Numbered from the stretch's first letter, positions 36,420 through 47,785 are shown. The stretch: DNA of 64,000 bases from an uncultured Erythrobacter sp. (GCA_947495695.1 CANLZP010000001.1:1199069-1263068); one strand, 5' to 3'. Notes: generated by a model from the letters alone, not told the origin. Numbers and translations: made by a program.

Positions 36420-36507
36420 GGAGCGGTGGCAGAGTGGTCGATCGCGCACGCTTGGAAAGCGTGTATAGGGCAACCTATCGAGGGTTCGAATCCCTCTCGC
36501 TCCGCCA
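36420..36507 (+). tRNA. tRNA-Ser(GGA)
   Basis: A complete class II tRNA of 88 bases. The acceptor stem GGAGCGG pairs with TCGCTCC, the anticodon loop TTGGAAA gives anticodon GGA (serine codons UCC and UCU), the variable arm ATAGG-GCAA-CCTAT is a perfect stem, and the T arm has GTTCGAATCC. The 3' CCA is encoded. Confidence 0.98.
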
Positions 36508-36930: not shown

Positions 36931-39900
36931 ATGATTAAAAACACCAGATTTTCTGACCGCCGGCCTGCGCGCTGGCTTACAAGCGCCGGGGTTTCGGCCT
37001 TGGCCATCACAATAGCGTCGCCCGTATTCGCTCAGGACAATACGAGTGATGATGCTGACGAAACCGTTGTCCTGGATGACGGCACAGCTCAGGTTGACAG
37101 CAGTCAGTCGATCGTTGTCACGGGTTCGCGGATCCGTCGTAATGAAACGACTAGCGCTTCGCCGCTTACTATCATCGACCCTAACCTTCAGCGTAAGCAG
37201 GGCTTGAATTCGGCAGCTGAAATCATTCAGCAGTCTCCCATCGCCAACGGCTCGACCCAGATCACCTCAGCGATCTCCGCCAACACCATCTCAAACGGTG
37301 GTCAGGGTGCTCAGACGGTTTCCCTTCGCGGATTGGGTGCTGAGCGGACCCTTGTTCTGTTGAATGATCGTCGCGCTGGACCTGCCGGTACTCGTGGTGC
37401 TGTTTCCGCATTCGATCTTAACGTTCTGCCGGGCATCATCATTGAACAGGTCGACGTGCTTAAGGACGGTGCGTCATCTATCTATGGTTCAGACGCTGTT
37501 GCGGGTGTTGTGAATATCCGCACCAAGAAATCAACCGACGGACTCGAATTTGACTTCTATCGCTCGCAGACCTTTGAGGAAGGCGGCGAAGAAACCAGTG
37601 TTAGCCTTGCATGGGGCAAGCAGTTTGACCGCGGCCACATCATGTTGGCAGGCGATTATTACAAACAGCGCGAATTGCAGCGTCAAGACCGAGACTTCCT
37701 CGGCTGCCCCGAAGACTATGTCTTCAGCGAAGATGGTCAGCGCAGGCTTGATCTGATTGATCCGCGCACCGGTGAATTGGGCTGCCCCAATGGAACGCTT
37801 TGGGGGCATGTTTGGACGTATTTCTCCGACAACTTGCAGGATCAAGATCCTAACTTCTTCAATCCAACGATCGTTTCATTGCTGCAGTTTAGCTACGGCA
37901 ACGATAATCTTGGTAACTTCATTCCGGCTCCTGGACCGGCGGTTAATCCCGGAAACGTAATTACGCCTCCAGGCTGGTTTGCGGTTAGTTATGAAGATCC
38001 CAATGCTTACATCCTGCGCAATGCCTATCACCCGTTCGAACAGGCAAGCACAGTTATTCCTGAAACGGAGCGCTTCACGCTTTACGCTGATGCAGCGTTT
38101 GAACTGACAGACGGCATTGAAATCTACGCGGAAGGCCTGTTCAACCGGCGCGAGACATATGTAGATACATACTCGCAGTTCTATAACTTCGGTTATACGG
38201 ACCTTTATGCGCCAGGTGATCCGGATGATCCGTTCCCAGGCTGGACATCGTTTGGTGGACTGGGCGCATTTGTCAGCCCTACCGGCATCCTTGACCAGTA
38301 TGATAACTGGATCGATGTCGACTATTACCGCGGTGTTCTGGGTGCTCGGGGCGATCTGACCGATCGTATCTCGTACGACGTTCACGGGCAGTATAGTCGC
38401 TCGGAAGGCAAGTATACACTGCAGCAAATTTTGCAGGATAGTATCACACAGCAAACCGATCGTGCCTATGGCTACGGCTGTTCAGGGCTGTTTACGGCGG
38501 TTGAGAACAAGCCGTGCCTGCAGATCAACTGGGTTGATCCTCGCGTGATGGCTGGCGACCTAACTCAGGAAGAAATTGACTATCTGGTCGACGAGGAAAC
38601 CGGTAATACTGTTTACGAACAAATTTTTGCCGAAGCTTCTGTTTCTGGTGAATTGTTCGAACTGCCAGCAGGCCCATTCGGGTTCGCAGCTGGTGCGGTT
38701 ATCCGGCGTGACGAGATTGACGACACGCCCGGCGACATCACTTATGCGCTGACGCCAGGCGGTGATCCGAACAATCCCGATGATTATGTCGACAACGGAT
38801 TTGCGAACAACTTCTCGTCTACACCCACCCGCGGGCGGACAACGACGAAAGAAGCATTCGCTGAAATCAACGTTCCGCTTCTTGCTGACGAATTCCTTGT
38901 CCAGAACTTGGAAATCTCGGCTGCTGCTCGTGTCACCAATGTAAGCGCGACAGCTCCTGACGGCCGCAGCGATTCCAGCAATGGCAACTGGACCTATAAG
39001 CTGACGGGTAACTGGCAAGTTACCGATTGGCTTCGGTTCCGCTCAACCTATGGCACATCCTATCGTGCGCCTGCGTTGTTCGAGCAATTCCTTGGTAGCC
39101 AAGCGAGTGGTGCGCGTCAGCGTAACGTCGACCCTTGTGTGCGTTGGCAGGAACAACTTGACGATGGCACGATTACTCAGCGTATTGCGACCAACTGTCA
39201 GGCTGACCAAAGCTTCTTGAACGGTCCTGCGGGCGGAATTCCGTTCGATCATACTGGGGCTGGTATCCAGGTTTCGGTGTTTACATCGGGCGGCCTTGGA
39301 GTGCTTGAGCCGGAGACGTCACAGGCATTTACAGCCAGTGTGATTTTGACGCCAACATTGGCCTTCCTGCCTGACACAGATATCGCTCTGACAATCGACT
39401 ATTTCGATATCACGGTTGAAGGCGAGATCTCACAATTGGATCCGTTCCAGATTGTTTCAGGTTGCTATGATTCAGAAGACTTCCCGAACAATCCGTTCTG
39501 TTCGTTCTTCGAACGCGGTCAAGATGGCGATATTAACAATATCCGCTTCGTGAATCGTCAGTTCATCAATGTTGATGAGCAGGTAAACCAGGGTATCGAC
39601 TTCACCCTGCGCGTTCGTCATGACTTCGGAAATCTGGGAGAATTGTCGCTTCTTGGTCAGGCTACTTTGCAAACGAAAGACACGCTCTTCACCTTTGCAA
39701 GCGACGCTGATGACTTCGATCCCGATGGTTTCCTCAACGGACAAGTTGGCGATCCGAAGTTCACAGGCAACATGATCGCGACGTGGGAGAAAGATAACAC
39801 CACGTTCCTGTATGGTGTGACCGTTATCGGTGCTTCTTCGAGTGAGCGCCAGTACATCGATGATTTCGGTGGCCTATGTAACCCAACTCCATCGTTCGAA

Positions 39901-40143
39901 GTTGTCTATGGCGAGCCTTACTGTGTCGTGCCTCGCACCGATGCAGTCTGGTATCACAATGCCTCGATCACGCAGAGTTTCAGCGATGATCGCTTCGAAG
40001 TAACGCTGGGTATTGCGAACCTGTTCGACACCGAACCACCTCAGGTTTCGGGTCTGGTTACGCCATTCGCCAACGTGCCACAGGCGTCACAGTATGACTT
40101 CCTTGGGCGTCGTGCGTTTTTGCAGGCTCGCGCTAAATTCTAA
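36931..40143 (+). CDS. Large TonB-dependent outer-membrane receptor
   Basis: This 1070-aa receptor has a Sec signal peptide (cut after VFAQ near residue 36), a TonB-box-like QSIVVTGSRIRR near residue 65, a plug domain (TVSLRGLGAERTLVLLNDRR, VDVLKDGASSIYGSDAVAGVVNI) and a beta-barrel ending LGRRAFLQARAKF with a terminal aromatic. It is larger than typical siderophore receptors and of the type used for carbohydrates or other large ligands in sphingomonads and xanthomonads. The ATG at 36931 has GGATAGGGGAA upstream. A strong terminator follows, so the downstream sulfotransferase and halogenase genes need their own promoter. The ligand is unknown. Confidence 0.94.
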   Translation: MIKNTRFSDRRPARWLTSAGVSALAITIASPVFAQDNTSDDADETVVLDDGTAQVDSSQSIVVTGSRIRRNETTSASPLTIIDPNLQRKQGLNSAAEIIQQSPIANGSTQITSAISANTISNGGQGAQTVSLRGLGAERTLVLLNDRRAGPAGTRGAVSAFDLNVLPGIIIEQVDVLKDGASSIYGSDAVAGVVNIRTKKSTDGLEFDFYRSQTFEEGGEETSVSLAWGKQFDRGHIMLAGDYYKQRELQRQDRDFLGCPEDYVFSEDGQRRLDLIDPRTGELGCPNGTLWGHVWTYFSDNLQDQDPNFFNPTIVSLLQFSYGNDNLGNFIPAPGPAVNPGNVITPPGWFAVSYEDPNAYILRNAYHPFEQASTVIPETERFTLYADAAFELTDGIEIYAEGLFNRRETYVDTYSQFYNFGYTDLYAPGDPDDPFPGWTSFGGLGAFVSPTGILDQYDNWIDVDYYRGVLGARGDLTDRISYDVHGQYSRSEGKYTLQQILQDSITQQTDRAYGYGCSGLFTAVENKPCLQINWVDPRVMAGDLTQEEIDYLVDEETGNTVYEQIFAEASVSGELFELPAGPFGFAAGAVIRRDEIDDTPGDITYALTPGGDPNNPDDYVDNGFANNFSSTPTRGRTTTKEAFAEINVPLLADEFLVQNLEISAAARVTNVSATAPDGRSDSSNGNWTYKLTGNWQVTDWLRFRSTYGTSYRAPALFEQFLGSQASGARQRNVDPCVRWQEQLDDGTITQRIATNCQADQSFLNGPAGGIPFDHTGAGIQVSVFTSGGLGVLEPETSQAFTASVILTPTLAFLPDTDIALTIDYFDITVEGEISQLDPFQIVSGCYDSEDFPNNPFCSFFERGQDGDINNIRFVNRQFINVDEQVNQGIDFTLRVRHDFGNLGELSLLGQATLQTKDTLFTFASDADDFDPDGFLNGQVGDPKFTGNMIATWEKDNTTFLYGVTVIGASSSERQYIDDFGGLCNPTPSFEVVYGEPYCVVPRTDAVWYHNASITQSFSDDRFEVTLGIANLFDTEPPQVSGLVTPFANVPQASQYDFLGRRAFLQARAKF

Positions 40144-40161
40144 GCCGAGCGATTGTGTAAC

Positions 40162-40199
40162 AAAAAAGGGGCGGCGGGCTTTGCCTGCCGCCCTTTTTG
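40162..40199 (+). terminator. Rho-independent terminator after the TonB receptor
   Basis: GGGCGGCGGGC-TTT-GCCTGCCGCCC forms an 11-bp stem with one G-T pair, flanked by AAAAAA before and TTTTT after. It starts about 20 bases after the stop codon. The A-run on the other side means it can also work on the minus strand. Confidence 0.93.
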
Positions 40200-40238
40200 T
40201 TAGCAATGCGCATAGTCTTGGTCTAAAATTTGGCCAAC

Positions 40239-41024
40239 ATGCAGACCATTCACCTCAAGCCTGACGATCTGGACGAGCAAACTCGCGCCTTTGAACAGCA
40301 GGCTCTTCGCCAACCGTTGTTTCTAAACTCGGTGCCCAAATGTGGCAGCCATCTGCTGCGGAATATTGTCCGCATGTTCGTGCCAATAGAGCAGCAGTAC
40401 CGGCGTGACTTTATCCAATATGGCAATTTGAGAGAGCACCTTGATGCGTTCGATGGGCCGCCAGCCAAGTTGAGTTGGGGCCATCTGGCATTCTCGGACA
40501 TCTCGGCCGTCACGACCAGCGCGGCTCGCAAGGTCTTGCTGGTTCGTGATCCCTACAGCTGGGTCCTCTCCAAAGCGCGCTTCATGCTCTCGGATGAGTT
40601 CAGCGGTGAGCTTGATATTCTCAAAAACGCACCCGTCTCGGCAGAACAGCTCATCAATATGGTGATCTTCGGGATCCATCGGACAAACCCTGGATTGAAA
40701 GACACCTTTACACATAACGCCGTCGCCTGGCTCGGAACGGACGTATTTCTGGTGAGATATGAAGAGCTTGTGTCTGCTCTGCGAAGGCTCGACGATCCGG
40801 CAGTCGAGCCCTATTTCAAAGATCTTTTCGATGCTTGCGGGCTCGCCATGCCTAGTGATTGGCGCGAAAGGGTGCGCATTGGCTCTGATCCTGCACACAG
40901 CGGGACAGCGAAACAAAACCTTTCGGGCAAAATCACGGAATTACCTTCTGAACTGACTGCTCAGCAGCGCGACCTGGTGGATTTTTCATGCCCTGGCTTG
41001 CGCAAAATTTTGGGTTACGACTGA
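40239..41024 (+). CDS. Sulfotransferase family protein
   Basis: This 261-aa PAPS-dependent sulfotransferase-fold protein has the 5'-phosphosulfate-binding loop LNSVPKCGSHLLRNIVR near residue 28 and the 3'-phosphate motif VLLVRDPYSWVLSKARF near residue 98. It is small but complete. The ATG at 40239 follows the receptor's terminator by 39 bases; the ORF track's start is a TTG three codons earlier. It is the first of three genes (with the TPR-sulfotransferase and the halogenase) on this strand. The acceptor is unknown. Confidence 0.88.
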   Translation: MQTIHLKPDDLDEQTRAFEQQALRQPLFLNSVPKCGSHLLRNIVRMFVPIEQQYRRDFIQYGNLREHLDAFDGPPAKLSWGHLAFSDISAVTTSAARKVLLVRDPYSWVLSKARFMLSDEFSGELDILKNAPVSAEQLINMVIFGIHRTNPGLKDTFTHNAVAWLGTDVFLVRYEELVSALRRLDDPAVEPYFKDLFDACGLAMPSDWRERVRIGSDPAHSGTAKQNLSGKITELPSELTAQQRDLVDFSCPGLRKILGYD

Positions 41025-41034
41025 GTCAGTACGC

Positions 41035-42831
41035 ATGACAAATGAACCGACAATTGGCGCGACGACTTCGACGGGAAAAGCCGGTTCCATAGCTAATTGC
41101 CTTGCCAAATTGTTAAATGACCCGCGCGGTGCGCTGACCGATGTGAATACGCTGCTGGGGCAATCGCCAAATGATCCGAGAGTTTTGAGGCTGGCGGCCA
41201 AAGTTCACCGGAAATTGGGTGAAGCGGATCAGGCGCATAAGGCAGAAATTGCAGCAATCCATCACAGTGGCAAGATCCCGAGCCTTGCGCTGGCCGCGAA
41301 GCAGATGGGCGCGCAAGAATTTGGCGAGGCGAGCCGCATATTGGCGGATTATTTGCGTCAAGAACCCGAAGATCTGGCCGCGCTAACGCTTTCGGCCGAA
41401 GCGGGCATTGCCATGGGCGTCGCTTACAAAGTTCTGCCGTTGCTAGAGCAGGTCCTGTCGCGCGCACCTTCATTTCTTAGAGCGCGCATCCTTTATGCCA
41501 ATGCTCTGTTGCTGACGGACAGGCTGTCCGATGCTCAGCGCATCATTGAACCGATCGTATCCCTGCGGCCAGACGATGCCGAAGTGGTCAATCTGCTTTC
41601 GCGTATTCATACAGAACGCGGTGACTATGCCGGGGCAACGAAGGCCAATCAACAACTGGTGAGGATTGATCGGGGATCTCCCGATGCCCTCACAAATCTA
41701 GGCGATAGTCTTCGCTTTGACGGAAAACGCGAAGAAGCTATCGCTGCCTATCGGCGCGCGATTGTGCAAGATGCCTCTCACGGGCGGGCATGGTGGAGCT
41801 TGGCTGATCTGGATCCGCGTGCTTTGACCCCAGACGACGTTGCACAAATTGGTGAAGCGCTTGTACGGCGAGGCGATCAACCAGAACACGCTGGCAATCT
41901 TCATTTTGCACTGGGTATCGCAGAGGATGCCCGAGGACACGCCGAGCAAGCCTTTGAACAGTTTGCTGCAGGCAATCGGCTGCGGCGCGTTGCGCAGCCT
42001 TACGATGCACAAAGCATCACCTCCCAGGTTGATCGCTATCTCGAGGCTTTAGGGAACAACCCCACCCCGCCCAGCCACACGGTTGACCCATCCGAGCCGG
42101 TGCCAATCTTTGTACTTGGTATGCCCAGAGCAGGCTCAACTTTGGTTGAACGGATGCTGGGCAGGCATTCCAGCATCGAAGCGTTGGGTGAGCTTTCGAT
42201 TGTAGCGCATATGGTCGACCGGGTTCGTAACGACGTGGGCGAAGATAAGCTTGAGCAGACTATTGCTGGGTTGGGCGAGCCTGCGCTGGCCAGCATGGGG
42301 CAATGGTATGTCGCCCGGGCGAAAGAGCGGATGAATTCGAAATCCGCATTCTTTGTAGACAAGTTGCACATGAACTGGCGCCATTTGCCGCTGATCCTGC
42401 GTATGCTGCCCCAGGCTCGAATTATCGATATCAGGCGCGGTGCGATGGACTGCTGCTGGTCGAATTTCAAAACGCTGTTTGCCCGCGGACATCCAGCCGC
42501 CAGCGACCTGGCCGATATTGGCCATTTCTATGCTGATTATGTTCGCCAAACAGACACATTAGCGCAAATCTATCCTGGCCGAATTCATCTTCAAAGCTAT
42601 GAGCAGTTGGTTGAAGCGATTGGTGATCAGGGTGAGGCAATGTTTGCCGCCATAGCGATACCCTTTGAGTCCCAAGTGCTGGAGTTTCACTTGTCGACGG
42701 AACCTGTCGCAACCGCGAGTAGCGAACAGGTCAGGAAACCTCTCAACCGCAAGGGTATTGGCGCCTGGAAAGCCTATGAGCCATGGCTGGGGCCATTGCG
42801 TGATGCGTTAGGAGACCAAGCGCGTGTCTGA
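41035..42831 (+). CDS. TPR repeat-sulfotransferase fusion protein
   Basis: This 598-aa protein joins TPR-like helical repeats (about residues 10-330, e.g. LAALTLSAEAGIAMG, ALTNLGDSLRFDGKREEAIAAYRRAI) to a sulfotransferase domain starting VPIFVLGMPRAGSTLVERMLGRH near residue 355, whose PRAGSTL loop binds the sulfate donor. RIIDIRRGAMDCCWSNF near residue 463 is the 3'-phosphate motif. This architecture is common in alphaproteobacteria, with unknown acceptors, perhaps proteins held by the TPR part. It starts 10 bp after the first sulfotransferase and overlaps the halogenase by 8 bp. Confidence 0.9.
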   Translation: MTNEPTIGATTSTGKAGSIANCLAKLLNDPRGALTDVNTLLGQSPNDPRVLRLAAKVHRKLGEADQAHKAEIAAIHHSGKIPSLALAAKQMGAQEFGEASRILADYLRQEPEDLAALTLSAEAGIAMGVAYKVLPLLEQVLSRAPSFLRARILYANALLLTDRLSDAQRIIEPIVSLRPDDAEVVNLLSRIHTERGDYAGATKANQQLVRIDRGSPDALTNLGDSLRFDGKREEAIAAYRRAIVQDASHGRAWWSLADLDPRALTPDDVAQIGEALVRRGDQPEHAGNLHFALGIAEDARGHAEQAFEQFAAGNRLRRVAQPYDAQSITSQVDRYLEALGNNPTPPSHTVDPSEPVPIFVLGMPRAGSTLVERMLGRHSSIEALGELSIVAHMVDRVRNDVGEDKLEQTIAGLGEPALASMGQWYVARAKERMNSKSAFFVDKLHMNWRHLPLILRMLPQARIIDIRRGAMDCCWSNFKTLFARGHPAASDLADIGHFYADYVRQTDTLAQIYPGRIHLQSYEQLVEAIGDQGEAMFAAIAIPFESQVLEFHLSTEPVATASSEQVRKPLNRKGIGAWKAYEPWLGPLRDALGDQARV

Positions 42832-44353
42832 TCCTCGCACACAGCCCCTGCGTAAGATACTTATCGTTGGCGGCGGTTCGGCAGGATGGATGGCGGCAAC
42901 GATGCTTTCACGGGTGTTGGGGCGCGTTGCAGAGATTGAATTGGTGGAGAGTGAAGCGCTCGGTGTGGTCGGGGTTGGCGAGGCAACAATTCCTCCGATC
43001 AGAAAGTTCAATCGGTTTTGCGGTGTTGATGAAGCCGCATTTCTGCGCGCCACCCGGGGCACTTTCAAAGTGGGCATCCAGTTCGAAAATTGGGGTGCCA
43101 TTGGTGATAGATATTTGCATGCTTTTGGGCGCGTAGGGCAAGAGCTCGATGCACTTGTCAGGATGCATCACTGGTGGCGCTTGGGTCAGCAGGCTAATGC
43201 GCCGGAATACCCGAAGTGGGAAGAATTATTCCTTGGGCGAGCTGCGACGGACTCAAATCGGTTTGGGCATGATCCGCGTAACCCCGGGCCATTGAGTGAA
43301 CTGTTGCCGCACGCCTATCACTTTGACGCCATCGCCTATGGTCAACATCTTCGCCAAATTGCTGAAAAACAGGGCGTAAAGCGCACTGAAGGCATCGTTG
43401 TCGATGTCGAACTGGCAGGCGAAACGGGCCATGTTCGAGCCGTCAAACTGGAAGACGGCCGCGAAATCAGTGCTGATTTGTTCATCGATTGCTCGGGCTT
43501 CAGGAGCATCTTGTTGGGCAAGGCGATGGACGAGCCATTTGACGATTGGAGCCGCTGGCTGCCGGCTGATCGCGCTGTGGTGGTCCAAAGCAAGTCAGAG
43601 GGGAATGACATTATTCCCGCGACACGGGCAATCGCTCATTCAGTGGGCTGGCAGTGGCGAATTCCGTTGCAGCATCGCGTGGGCAATGGGCACGTATACG
43701 CCAGCGCATTCTCGAATGATGAAGAGGCTGAGCAGCGGTTGCTGGGCCAATTGGACAGCGAGGCCATTGGAAGCCCAAGGGTCTTGCGCTTTGCTACAGG
43801 ACGCAGACAGCGGCCGTGGGTTGGCAATGTCGTCGGTTTAGGGTTGGCATCAGGCTTTCTTGAGCCTCTGGAATCCACCAGTATCCACCTGGTGCAGACC
43901 GCGCTCGAACGATTGGTAGAACTGCTACCTTCGCGCGCGATTGATCCGGCTTTGCGAGATCGTTTCAACACGCAAAGCGAGAATGAATGGTGTCAGGTGA
44001 GGGACCTCATCATTGCTCACTATAAGGTAACCCAGCGCGAAGATTCCGAATTTTGGCGGCATTGTTCGGCAATGGATGTGCCCGATTCATTGGCCGAGAA
44101 CATGGCCTTATGGAAAGATCACGGTGCCCTGACGATTGATGGCGGGCATCTATTCCAGCTTGGTTCTTGGTCTGCGGTTTTGATCGGACAGAACCTCCTG
44201 GCTCAAAGGGTTCACTCGCTGACAGCGCGCGTGGAGGACAAGGACATTGCACCGCGTATTCAAGAGCTTGCACACTCCTTGCGGGTAAAGGCAGCATCCC
44301 TGCCAAGCCATTCCGCTTTTCTCAGACAGATAGGGGCCTGGTCGGACGCCTAG
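42824..44353 (+). CDS. Flavin-dependent tryptophan-halogenase family protein
   Basis: This 509-aa protein has every key motif of flavin-dependent halogenases: FAD loop GGGSAG near residue 17, GEATIP near 53-58, the catalytic Lys in FKVGIQF (residue 82), the WQWRIP signature at 276-281 and the Glu in LEPLESTSIH (residue 350). It should halogenate an activated aromatic ring using reduced FAD, halide and oxygen. Related enzymes next to TonB receptors (e.g. BrvH and Xanthomonas homologues) prefer bromide and indole-type substrates in vitro, but their natural substrates are unknown. It starts at GTG and overlaps the TPR-sulfotransferase. No flavin reductase is adjacent. Confidence 0.93.
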   Translation: MSDPRTQPLRKILIVGGGSAGWMAATMLSRVLGRVAEIELVESEALGVVGVGEATIPPIRKFNRFCGVDEAAFLRATRGTFKVGIQFENWGAIGDRYLHAFGRVGQELDALVRMHHWWRLGQQANAPEYPKWEELFLGRAATDSNRFGHDPRNPGPLSELLPHAYHFDAIAYGQHLRQIAEKQGVKRTEGIVVDVELAGETGHVRAVKLEDGREISADLFIDCSGFRSILLGKAMDEPFDDWSRWLPADRAVVVQSKSEGNDIIPATRAIAHSVGWQWRIPLQHRVGNGHVYASAFSNDEEAEQRLLGQLDSEAIGSPRVLRFATGRRQRPWVGNVVGLGLASGFLEPLESTSIHLVQTALERLVELLPSRAIDPALRDRFNTQSENEWCQVRDLIIAHYKVTQREDSEFWRHCSAMDVPDSLAENMALWKDHGALTIDGGHLFQLGSWSAVLIGQNLLAQRVHSLTARVEDKDIAPRIQELAHSLRVKAASLPSHSAFLRQIGAWSDA

Positions 44354-44401: not shown

Positions 44402-44845
44402 TCAAGCGCGCATATCCTTGGATGATCCCAAACTGATATGAGAGGTTATGCTGGCAACCTGTGGTAGAACGCCCAAAGTGTCAGCATGGAAGTGTTTGTA
44501 GCTTTCCAGGCTGTCCACCTCGACCCGCAACAGATATTCCACCGAACCGGTGATATTGTGGCACTCGCGCACTTCTTCGGCACTCTCCATCGCCCGTTCG
44601 AAGTTGCGCGCGTCCTTTGCCAGATGGGCTGATAGGCCGACCATCACAAACACAACAATGTCTCCGCCTATGCGTGATCGGTCGAGAACCGCCCTGTAAC
44701 CAGAAATGCAACCGCCACTTTCGAGTTCTTGCACTCTGCGCAAACAGGCTGACGGCGACAAACCGATGGTGGCGGCAAGATTGACATTGCTGATTCGCCC
44801 ATCGCGCTCCAGAACGTGCAAGATTTTGCGGTCAATGCTGTCCAT
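44402..44845 (-). CDS. Lrp/AsnC family transcriptional regulator
   Basis: This 147-aa regulator has the N-terminal helix-turn-helix MDSIDRKILHVLERDGRISNVNLAATIGLSPSACLRRVQELE and a C-terminal RAM/AsnC ligand-binding domain ending TSHISLGSS. Such proteins sense amino acids. It is divergent from the indoleamine dioxygenase gene, so tryptophan or a derivative is the likely effector. The ATG at 44845 lies only six bases after a textbook promoter (-35 TTGTCA, 17 bp, -10 TATAAT), so its mRNA is probably leaderless; the ORF track's 44884 start lies upstream of that promoter's -10 box. Confidence 0.93.
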   Translation of the reverse strand: MDSIDRKILHVLERDGRISNVNLAATIGLSPSACLRRVQELESGGCISGYRAVLDRSRIGGDIVVFVMVGLSAHLAKDARNFERAMESAEEVRECHNITGSVEYLLRVEVDSLESYKHFHADTLGVLPQVASITSHISLGSSKDMRA

Positions 44846-44851
44846 TTTAGA

Positions 44852-44880
44852 ATTATATGCGAAAATGAGATCCCTGACAA
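44852..44880 (-). promoter_or_regulatory. Sigma-70 promoter of the Lrp-type regulator
   Basis: On the minus strand TTGTCA (44875-44880) and TATAAT (44852-44857) are 17 bases apart. Transcription should start at or beside the ATG at 44845, giving a leaderless message. Confidence 0.78.
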
Positions 44881-44914
44881 CCAACTATGCAAGGTAATTC
44901 GCCCTGTATTGCTA

Positions 44915-44939
44915 TATAATTGTGCTCTATCTGATAGAG
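44915..44939 (+). promoter_or_regulatory. -10 box and palindrome in front of the indoleamine dioxygenase gene
   Basis: A perfect TATAAT (44915-44920) has no good -35 box at the right distance, which suggests an activator-dependent promoter. The perfect inverted repeat CTCTATC-T-GATAGAG (44925-44939) covers the expected start site and part of the ribosome-binding site (AGAGG at 44936-44940). It may be an operator for the divergent Lrp-type regulator or a hairpin in the message. Confidence 0.55.
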
Positions 44940-44950
44940 GTCAATTCACT

Positions 44951-46147
44951 ATGTCGCAGTCAATCAACACAGTGCCGGGTATCAAGCCTCTGGAGCAATA
45001 CGACATGTCTGCCGAGCGCGGCTTTCTATGTCGCCATGATGCCTCGAACATTGATCTGCCGGATGGCTGGGGAGAAGCAGCAAGTGTTGCACGGCAATTG
45101 CCAAACATACTTCCCTCGGGGAGCATCCGGGCCTTCCTCAATGCGCATCTGCCAGATGCCGATGATTGTTCTGATGCATCGTCACTGAGCGATGCGCAGG
45201 CGCGCATGGCCACGGTGCATTACAGCTTCATGGTGCAATCCTACATCTGGGGCGAGGAGAGCTGCACAGACCGTTTGCCAGCTTGCCTCTCGGTTCCGAT
45301 GGTGGCGCTGGCTGATCGCCTTGGTCAGCAACCGCTGCTTACCTACAGTTCTTATGTGCTCGACAATTGGGCGCTGATCGATCCGGCTAAGCCCATTGGT
45401 TTGGACAATATCCAGATGCTGCAGAATTTTCTGGCTGGGCAGGACGAAGCCTGGTTCGTGCTGGTTCATGTCGCCATTGAAGCTTGTGCGGGCGGCGTCT
45501 TGTCCCGGTTCGCAGATATTCAGGCGGCGGTGGACAGCGGTGATGCGGCAGCAGCCCAAGAACAGCTGGAGCAAACGGCAACCATCTGGTCGCAGATCAA
45601 CGGCCTGTTTGATCGCATGCCCGAGCGGTGCGATCCCTATATCTATTTCGAGCGCGTGCGCCCCTATATTCACGGTTGGAAGGACAATCCGGCTTTGCCG
45701 AACGGCGTGATCTATGAAGGGGTTGAGCGCTATGGTTCGGCGGCCCAAGCCTTTCGCGGGCAGACCGGATCGCAGTCCTCCATCGTCCCTAGCATGGATG
45801 CTTTGTTGGGCGTGGGACATGCGGCAGATCCATTGCGCGAATATCTCGACCAGCTGCACGAATACCGGCCGCGAGGCCATCGGCGGTTTATCGATGATGT
45901 CCGTGCGACCAGTACTTTGCGCGATTTCGCCCAGAAGGTTCAATCGCATAGTCTCAATGAGGCATATAATGCCAATGTTCAGGCCGTTGCAGATTTTCGC
46001 TCGCGGCATCTCGAATATGCTGCGTCCTACATCAACAAGCAGGGCAAGCGCTCTGCTGGCAATGATACAGAAGTGGGTACAGGCGGCACGCCGTTCATGC
46101 GGTATTTGAAGAAGCATCGCGACGAGACGCAAGCCAGATTGCTGTAA
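44951..46147 (+). CDS. Indoleamine 2,3-dioxygenase
   Basis: This 398-aa heme enzyme opens the indole ring of tryptophan to give N-formylkynurenine. It aligns by eye with human IDO1 over the whole C-terminal half: YFERVRPYIHGWKDNPALPNG (Arg237 = human Arg231), AFRGQTGSQSS, YRPRGHRRFI, the proximal heme ligand His353 in FRSRHLEYAASYI, and GTGGTPFMRYL. The ATG at 44951 follows AGAGG. It is divergent from an Lrp-type regulator and 600 bp from a tryptophan-halogenase gene. Later kynurenine-pathway genes (formamidase, kynureninase) are not in the window. An MFS transporter follows. Confidence 0.93.
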   Translation: MSQSINTVPGIKPLEQYDMSAERGFLCRHDASNIDLPDGWGEAASVARQLPNILPSGSIRAFLNAHLPDADDCSDASSLSDAQARMATVHYSFMVQSYIWGEESCTDRLPACLSVPMVALADRLGQQPLLTYSSYVLDNWALIDPAKPIGLDNIQMLQNFLAGQDEAWFVLVHVAIEACAGGVLSRFADIQAAVDSGDAAAAQEQLEQTATIWSQINGLFDRMPERCDPYIYFERVRPYIHGWKDNPALPNGVIYEGVERYGSAAQAFRGQTGSQSSIVPSMDALLGVGHAADPLREYLDQLHEYRPRGHRRFIDDVRATSTLRDFAQKVQSHSLNEAYNANVQAVADFRSRHLEYAASYINKQGKRSAGNDTEVGTGGTPFMRYLKKHRDETQARLL

Positions 46148-46264
46148 TACGCTCCCGCAACGCTTCAACATTGGTCGGAAACTCTTGTTTTTCCGGTCGA
46201 ACCTGTTTGCCAACGCTGACGGGATAGACCAGTGTCCTCCCCAGTTCAGTTACTGGGAAGATTA

Positions 46265-47785
46265 ATGACCGCAACGGCAGCGCATGCACCGCCTTCAATT
46301 CTCCCGGAATCTGAAGGTTTCGGCACGGCAGGATACCGTTCCTATGTCCTGGGAATGCTGTTGGTCGTCTATATTTTCAACTTCATTGACCGAACTATCA
46401 TCAACATCCTGACCGAGCCGATTAAACTCAGCTTTGGATTGGAAGACTGGCAATTGGGCCTGTTGGGCGGTCCCGCTTTTGCGGTGCTTTATACCTTTAT
46501 CGGTATCCCGATCGCCCGAGGGGCCGAGCGATATAATCGCGTGATGATCATTGCCTCTGCGGTCGCGATCTGGAGTCTTTTTACCGTCCTGTGCGGTTTC
46601 GCCGTATCGTTCTTAATGCTGTTTCTGTTCCGTGTTGGGGTTAGCATAGGAGAGGCTGGCTGCACGCCGCCCGCCCAATCACTGATCGCCGATTATTTCA
46701 AACCGTCACGCAGAGCCACGGCTGTTTCGGTCTACGCTTTGGGCGTGCCAATCGGCAGTATGCTGGCATCGGTTTTCGGCGGGCAGTTGGCGGGCCTGGA
46801 CGGGGCGGAATTTGGCGCATGGATCAACTCCATGGGACTTGGCTTCCTTTTTGGGAGCATGGATTGGACTGACGTTGAGGGGTGGCGTGTTGCCTTTGTG
46901 GTGGTGGGCCTGCCAGGCCTTTTGCTCTCACTGCTGGTCTGGCGCAGCATTAAAGAGCCGCCGCGGGGATACACCGATCCAGCCGCGTTACAGGGTCTGA
47001 AGCAGGCCAGCTTCAAGGAGGCGCTGAGCGTCCTGGCTAAGAAGCCAGCCTATTGGCATGTCACATTCGGCGCGATGCTGGCATCCTTTGTCGGCTATGG
47101 CGTTGGGCAATTCACCACATCGTTCCTGATCCGCACGCATGGGCTTGCTATCGAAGATGCCTCTTTGTTGTTCGGATTGATTTTGGGCCTGATGGCGGCA
47201 ATCGGCGTGTTTTTATCCGGCTTTTTGGCTGACAAGATTTCACTACGCCACCCCAAGGCGCTGGTAGGAATACCGGCATTGGGACTGTTTGTGTCTGTTC
47301 CGCTCTATGTCTTCGGCTACATCGAATCCAATCTCTGGTTGGCAATGCCTGCGCTGATGGCCGCCGCTACGCTGCACTATTTCTATCTTGGGCCAATGTA
47401 TGCCGTTGCTGGCGGTGTGGTCGACAGCCGGATGCGCGCAACCGCGGTTGCGATCACGCTGTTTGTGGTGAACTTGTTGGGCTATGGGCTTGGACCGCCA
47501 TTGATCGGTATCCTGTCCACCGTTCTCAAGTCCGTATTCTTCAGCGGAAACGATCTCGGGTTGACGATAGAGGCATGCAAGCCGCTTCTCTCGATGGCGC
47601 CAGAAGCCAAGGCTGCATTGAGTTCCATCCAATTGGAAGCCCATGCGGCGTGTGCTTCGGCTGATGCGCGCGGGCTGCAATGGTCGATTGTGATATTTGT
47701 CTGCATCTACGCTTGGGCGGCGCTGCATTATCTGTTGGCAGGTCGGACTTTGCAACGCGATATGGCGGCATCGCCTGCGTCGTAA
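46265..47785 (+). CDS. MFS transporter, spinster-like
   Basis: This 506-aa transporter has 12 predicted helices and the spinster-type N-terminus VVYIFNFIDRTIINILTEPIKLSFGLEDWQLGLL, followed by the loop-2 motif IARGAERYNR. A long insertion near residues 175-210 extends one extracytoplasmic loop. The ATG at 46265 has GGGAAG upstream; a GTG at 46232 is an alternative. It lies between the dioxygenase and an acyl-CoA dehydrogenase pair on the same strand and probably moves an organic acid or hydrophobic catabolite. Substrate unknown. Confidence 0.9.
   Translation: MTATAAHAPPSILPESEGFGTAGYRSYVLGMLLVVYIFNFIDRTIINILTEPIKLSFGLEDWQLGLLGGPAFAVLYTFIGIPIARGAERYNRVMIIASAVAIWSLFTVLCGFAVSFLMLFLFRVGVSIGEAGCTPPAQSLIADYFKPSRRATAVSVYALGVPIGSMLASVFGGQLAGLDGAEFGAWINSMGLGFLFGSMDWTDVEGWRVAFVVVGLPGLLLSLLVWRSIKEPPRGYTDPAALQGLKQASFKEALSVLAKKPAYWHVTFGAMLASFVGYGVGQFTTSFLIRTHGLAIEDASLLFGLILGLMAAIGVFLSGFLADKISLRHPKALVGIPALGLFVSVPLYVFGYIESNLWLAMPALMAAATLHYFYLGPMYAVAGGVVDSRMRATAVAITLFVVNLLGYGLGPPLIGILSTVLKSVFFSGNDLGLTIEACKPLLSMAPEAKAALSSIQLEAHAACASADARGLQWSIVIFVCIYAWAALHYLLAGRTLQRDMAASPAS

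Follow-up and report, generated by a model that had tools for sequence, protein, structure and literature searches.

A tailoring enzyme encoded beside a TonB receptor is a known kind of arrangement. Siderophore loci usually carry tailoring enzymes beside their uptake receptors, and halogenases are often encoded next to TonB receptors in marine and plant-associated bacteria; the natural substrates of these halogenases are, to our knowledge, not known. BrvH, a group C halogenase with the motifs ATIPTI/HPFGL, is inactive towards tryptophan; it halogenates indole, and bromide is the only halide that it uses (PMC8269204). The catalytic residues of the protein-tyrosine sulfotransferase TPST1 are R79, E100, K159 and S286 (PMC5562738). 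In bacteria, raxX-raxSTAB of Xanthomonas is a tyrosine-sulfated peptide system (PMC6637879).

Here we describe a row of four genes in a 64,000-nucleotide stretch of DNA (the window) from an uncultured Erythrobacter sp., an Erythrobacter-type sphingomonad with a genome of 2.74 Mb. The row encodes a TonB-dependent receptor, a small sulfotransferase (sST), a TPR-sulfotransferase and a flavin-dependent halogenase. In Sphingomonadales, we found the receptor and sST to be a fixed pair. The genomes with this pair are also those in which a halogenase of the BrvH/Xcc type occurs, and in Erythrobacter and Qipengyuania its gene is the fourth of the row. We infer that the halogenase and the sulfotransferases probably share one aromatic target. 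As far as the literature covered shows, a fixed pair of this kind, joined by a TPR-sulfotransferase of the protein-tyrosine type and accompanied by a halogenase, has apparently not been described; none of the papers found in our search, which covered few subscription papers, joins a tryptophan halogenase, a TonB receptor and a sulfotransferase.

Layout of the cassette and its products

The first-pass annotation had placed the four genes in one row, with the halogenase gene overlapping that of the TPR-sulfotransferase and the other sulfotransferase gene preceding the latter. All of this was borne out, and the domain matches agree (Table 1). The gap between the sST and TPR-sulfotransferase genes is 10 bases, and the TPR-sulfotransferase and halogenase genes overlap by 8 bases. 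The halogenase start is a GTG inside the 3′ end of the TPR-sulfotransferase gene, with an AGGAG ∼10 bases upstream, and its translation is predicted from this arrangement to be coupled to that of the TPR-sulfotransferase.

Table 1. Features of the cassette, in positions counted from the first nucleotide of the window
Feature	Position	Strand	Description
TonB-dependent receptor P0001 (TBDR), 1070 aa	36931..40143	+	PF07715 and PF00593 above cut-off
Terminator-like hairpin, receptor/sST gap	40168..40202	+	GGGGCGGCGGGC-TTT-GCCTGCCGCCC, T-run after
sST P0002, small SULT-like sulfotransferase, 261 aa	40239..41024	+	predicted fold, Foldseek
TPR-sulfotransferase P0003, 598 aa	41035..42831	+	PF13469 109 bits and TPR models
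Flavin-dependent halogenase P0004, 509 aa	42824..44353	+	PF04820 562 bits

The tight coupling appears to be limited to the three enzyme genes. The whole gap between the receptor and sST genes folds at −47.8 kcal/mol (z −6.3), and the hairpin within it, a twelve-pair stem followed by a T-run, looks like an intrinsic terminator. Such a strong G+C-rich hairpin is present in this gap at 51/51 loci, and 92% of the gaps have z below −2 relative to shuffles. As this hairpin separates them, the receptor is apparently not simply co-transcribed with the enzymes, and read-through or a weak promoter of their own would have to serve the latter.

Two flanking regions were also noted. A tRNA-Ser (GGA) gene at 36420-36507 lies directly upstream of the cassette and is a possible insertion site. 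Directly downstream of the halogenase, at 44402-47785, are genes for an indoleamine 2,3-dioxygenase, a divergent Lrp/AsnC regulator and an MFS transporter. The dioxygenase is genuine (PF01231, 282 bits; human IDO2, E 2e-48), but this set stands next to the cassette only in the window and in a near-identical relative, not in Qipengyuania or in the further genome G618. We therefore set these genes aside, and with them the idea that the halogenase and the dioxygenase act jointly on tryptophan.

The receptor has an Ala-rich, signal-peptide-like N-terminus, followed by the plug and β-barrel of a TonB-dependent receptor, as seen both in the domain models and in an AlphaFold2 model (pLDDT 74.6). This model finds TonB-dependent receptors in the PDB, with the best matches to PirA and PfeA (E 1e-28). 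These siderophore-receptor matches are generic, with 13–14% identity and with our receptor being ∼350 residues longer, and a ligand class was not deduced from them. Ten Cys residues are invariant and fall into five close pairs (C259, C285, C517, C529, C736, C756, C845, C857, C983 and C998), which are probably disulfides in external loops. We also noted three Trp columns, 418, 624 and 944, that are conserved in 27, 28 and 26 of the 29 receptors of halogenase-free modules and are kept in just 2, 3 and 6 of the 16 receptors of halogenase-bearing modules, a comparison that is confounded by clade structure.

The sST protein itself has no Pfam or NCBIfam match, and a sequence search for its solved relatives gave chance matches only. 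Its relatives weakly match Sulfotransfer_3 (16/25) and Sulfotransfer_1 (13/25). An AlphaFold2 model built from an alignment of 25 relatives was confident (pLDDT 87.4, pTM 0.86), and its best 50 Foldseek matches are all sulfotransferases, the top one being SULT7A1 (E 9e-7, probability 1.00, TM about 0.57, 14% identity). K34, the PAPS-loop Lys within PK[SC]GSH, is invariant in the 25 sequences. So is H82, which lies 21 residues N-terminal to the Arg of the second PAPS motif and which, from this motif spacing, we take to occupy the place of the catalytic base of SULTs. The Ser of the 3′-phosphate motif is Ala in most relatives and is Ser111 in the window protein. From the weakly matching relatives and the model, sST is thus predicted to be a SULT-like sulfotransferase, having the fold, the PAPS-loop Lys and, as placed by motif spacing, the His at the catalytic position. 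It shares the Lys and this His with the first matches of the model, the SULT cytosolic sulfotransferases and the glycopeptide sulfotransferases Teg12 and Teg14, but it differs from them in sequence (12–17% identity, TM about 0.5) and represents a distinct small family without a Pfam or NCBIfam model of its own.

In the TPR-sulfotransferase, the N-terminal half matches TPR superhelices, including that of O-GlcNAc transferase, and the best solved relatives of the catalytic-domain profile are human TPST1 (E 4.5e-20) and TPST2. R79, E100, K159 and S286 of TPST1 align with R365, E386, K443 and S562, which are invariant in 12 aligned domains and 20 full-length relatives. The protein is thus predicted to be a TPR superhelix joined to a protein-tyrosine-sulfotransferase-like catalytic domain, with a homologous PAPS-binding domain that retains the catalytic Arg, Glu, Lys and Ser. 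Unlike TPST1 and TPST2, it carries fused TPR repeats and no visible signal peptide, and it would work in the bacterial cytoplasm instead of the Golgi.

The motifs claimed for the halogenase in the first-pass annotation (GGGSAG, GEATIP, K82, WQWRIP and E350) were every one present. The match to PF04820 (562 bits against a cut-off of 21) spans the whole model (1–457), and the GxGxxG and WxWxIP motifs are accompanied by the catalytic Lys and Glu. K82 and E350 are invariant in the 17/17 aligned orthologues, among which several have Ser for the Ala of GGGSAG and one has Asn for the Arg of WQWRIP. The closest solved structures are 9luq, Xcc4156 (6y1w) and BrvH (6frl), with PrnA and RebH being farther. 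Its ATIPPI and HAFGR are similar to motifs given for group C, the non-tryptophan group, in PMC8269204. On inspection, the sequence showed no tryptophan motif of the HxHGFE type that is listed in the same paper. Structures and motifs would thus put the enzyme into one family and one group with BrvH (Brevundimonas BAL3) and the non-tryptophan, bromide-preferring enzymes of Xcc-b100, from which it differs in being the fourth gene of a sulfotransferase cassette.

Conservation of the pair and co-occurrence of the halogenase

We searched family, order and class samples for sST and found it only in Sphingomonadales. It was present in 24/401 family genomes, 34/401 order genomes and 12/61 Qipengyuania genomes; three members of the family were its only carriers in the class sample, and the plasmid collection gave no match. 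Since its matches are either very strong or absent, sST is a sharply bounded family. Among the 52 sST loci examined for gene order, 51 have a receptor of the same type directly upstream on the same strand, at a gap of 81–144 bases. The TPR-sulfotransferase comes next after sST at 39 loci, and the halogenase is a linked fourth gene at only 8, so the conserved unit is not the four-gene order. It is the receptor with sST; the TPR-sulfotransferase is the usual third gene and the halogenase an optional fourth. In keeping with this, receptor and sST distances correlate at 0.92 overall and at 0.72 in the genomes where the halogenase is unlinked.

We then compared the occurrence of the halogenase with that of sST. 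In the family sample, orthologous halogenases score at least 630 bits and the next halogenases at most 524; the orthologues form one clade (100/100) apart from the other halogenases of the family. Over the family, Qipengyuania and order samples together, an orthologue is present in 13/48 genomes that bear sST and in 0/430 genomes that lack it (Fisher 2e-14, with kinship uncorrected and counts taken without a species tree). Within Qipengyuania, all six genomes with the halogenase are among the 12/61 with sST (p 1.7e-5). Five more genomes were reached via the halogenase, of which four have sST and one MAG (G403) does not. Thus, sST is present in 17/18 halogenase genomes, linked to the halogenase in 8 and unlinked in 9, and 5 of these 17 have no TPR-sulfotransferase beside sST. 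The reverse association is loose, as about three quarters of the searched pair-bearing genomes are without the halogenase. On the sST tree the halogenase label changes 5 times, compared to a mean of 11.7 for shuffled labels, and 0/500 shuffles were as low. The halogenase accompanies two subtypes of sST and is hardly ever seen with the commonest subtype.

Shared descent alone explains this co-occurrence poorly, because halogenase and sST distances are uncorrelated in the unlinked genomes (r −0.03). Inheritance of the halogenase has therefore not always followed that of the pair, even though the halogenase turns up in genomes that have the pair. Its unlinked copies lie mostly in a housekeeping neighbourhood, and several genera (L096 8281-9192 and relatives) have a common site by prephenate dehydratase, MoxR/DUF58, Ppx and FtsJ.

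It had been stated in advance that a joint function would be unlikely if related genomes mostly carried the halogenase without the sulfotransferases, or if the key Lys and Glu were lost. Neither was seen. A joint function is supported by the presence of sST in nearly all halogenase genomes and by the retention of K82 and E350 in the 17 orthologues; the part of that claim that concerned a substrate did not gain such support. Through its co-occurrence across genomes, the halogenase is tied to a single receptor type and a set of two sulfotransferases, of which one belongs to the protein-tyrosine type. This narrows the chemistry to a target that offers a hydroxyl to be sulfated as well as a ring to be brominated. 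The cultured strains Qipengyuania aquimaris and Q. nanhaisediminis are available for a substrate search, with the pair-bearing lineages without the halogenase as natural controls.

Possible targets of the enzymes

We favour the reading that the row is a receptor-coupled tailoring cassette, whose three enzymes have a single target in common, either aromatic or peptidic; we give it a probability of roughly 0.5. The hairpin would stop most transcripts, leaving the receptor in excess and the three enzymes at a lower level. The receptor would be exported, and the enzymes should be cytoplasmic, because inspection showed no export signal in them and PAPS and reduced flavin are what their relatives work with. 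In the simplest view they have one aromatic target in common. The target would be tied to this receptor, our first choice being its imported ligand. The sulfotransferases would transfer sulfate from PAPS to the hydroxyl of a phenol or tyrosine; a peptide or protein target would be held by the TPR helix. With FADH2 and O2 the halogenase would form hypobromite, which Lys82 and Glu350 may direct onto indole or another electron-rich ring. The catalytic residues are conserved in all three enzymes.

The first-pass annotation had offered the import, halogenation and sulfation of one aromatic ligand as a possible function. Its joint-function part is supported by the data above, but no ligand, precursor peptide or transporter was found. 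In our neighbourhood comparison, neither an importer of the inner membrane nor a biosynthetic gene or a precursor peptide was conserved with the cassette. This counts against our reading, in which a ligand would have to meet cytoplasmic enzymes, and so do the few linked loci, the housekeeping site of most unlinked copies, the halogenase genomes without a TPR-sulfotransferase beside sST, and the MAG that lacks sST. We compared the small ORFs lying up to 900 bases to either side of seven linked cassettes and found none common to Erythrobacter and Qipengyuania; matches occur only among the Qipengyuania copies and come mostly from flanking genes. A precursor-peptide (RiPP, Rax-like) reading was rejected on this ground. 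The cassette is like raxX-raxSTAB (PMC6637879) in being a small set of genes with a bacterial sulfotransferase of the tyrosine type; it differs in that no precursor peptide was found, nor any dedicated exporter near the cassette except the MFS gene, which is itself not conserved with it.

The absence of small-molecule pathway genes would favour a different view, that the enzymes modify a protein in the cytoplasm before its export, most simply the receptor or a receptor-held peptide. The TPR-sulfotransferase and sST would sulfate Tyr, and the halogenase would brominate Trp, which could affect how the receptor binds its ligand or keep it from being recognized by phages or bacteriocins. The receptor is the sole invariant partner of sST. 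The likeness of the TPR-sulfotransferase to protein-tyrosine sulfotransferases, with all four catalytic residues in place, fits this view and lends support to the earlier suggestion of a peptide or protein target recruited by its TPR part; this part is also similar to the protein-recruiting TPR part of O-GlcNAc transferase. Free tryptophan, moreover, is not a substrate of related halogenases such as BrvH (PMC8269204). Against this, a column comparison showed no Trp or Tyr column gained in receptors from halogenase-bearing modules, and three Trp columns are mostly lost there. We also know of no sulfated or halogenated outer-membrane receptor. Overall, we regard modification of a protein before export as unlikely. 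More doubtful still is its specific form, a post-translational system in which the TonB receptor or a peptide that it carries is Tyr-sulfated by two dedicated sulfotransferases and, in some lineages, Trp-brominated. If true, sulfation and bromination would tune the binding of the receptor or the range of its attackers.

The nearest fold matches of the receptor, the catecholate siderophore receptors PirA and PfeA, together with the usual layout of siderophore loci, would suit enzymes that tailor one of the cell's own products, which leaves the cell and is then retaken via the receptor like a siderophore or a signalling compound. This is improbable in our view, as no NRPS, PKS or amine/acid ligase gene is nearby, the fold match is generic and the receptor is longer than those matched. 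A halogenase unrelated to the sulfotransferases, which landed beside them once and was then inherited, has a similarly poor standing: the linked halogenases form one subclade (100/99), so the linkage arose once, and most pair loci do without the enzyme, but the co-occurrence persists where the genes are unlinked with uncorrelated histories, and also inside one genus.

The receptor-coupled cassette, our preferred reading, has two simpler counterparts in the same genome, both without sST and each consisting of a TonB receptor with one enzyme. A second TPR-sulfotransferase gene (L154 8982-10478; G000 C2:69134) lies near a TonB receptor gene on the same strand, and a second gene of the tryptophan-halogenase family (L099 9168-14263; G000 C1:743781-745175) is divergent from that of a large TonB receptor.
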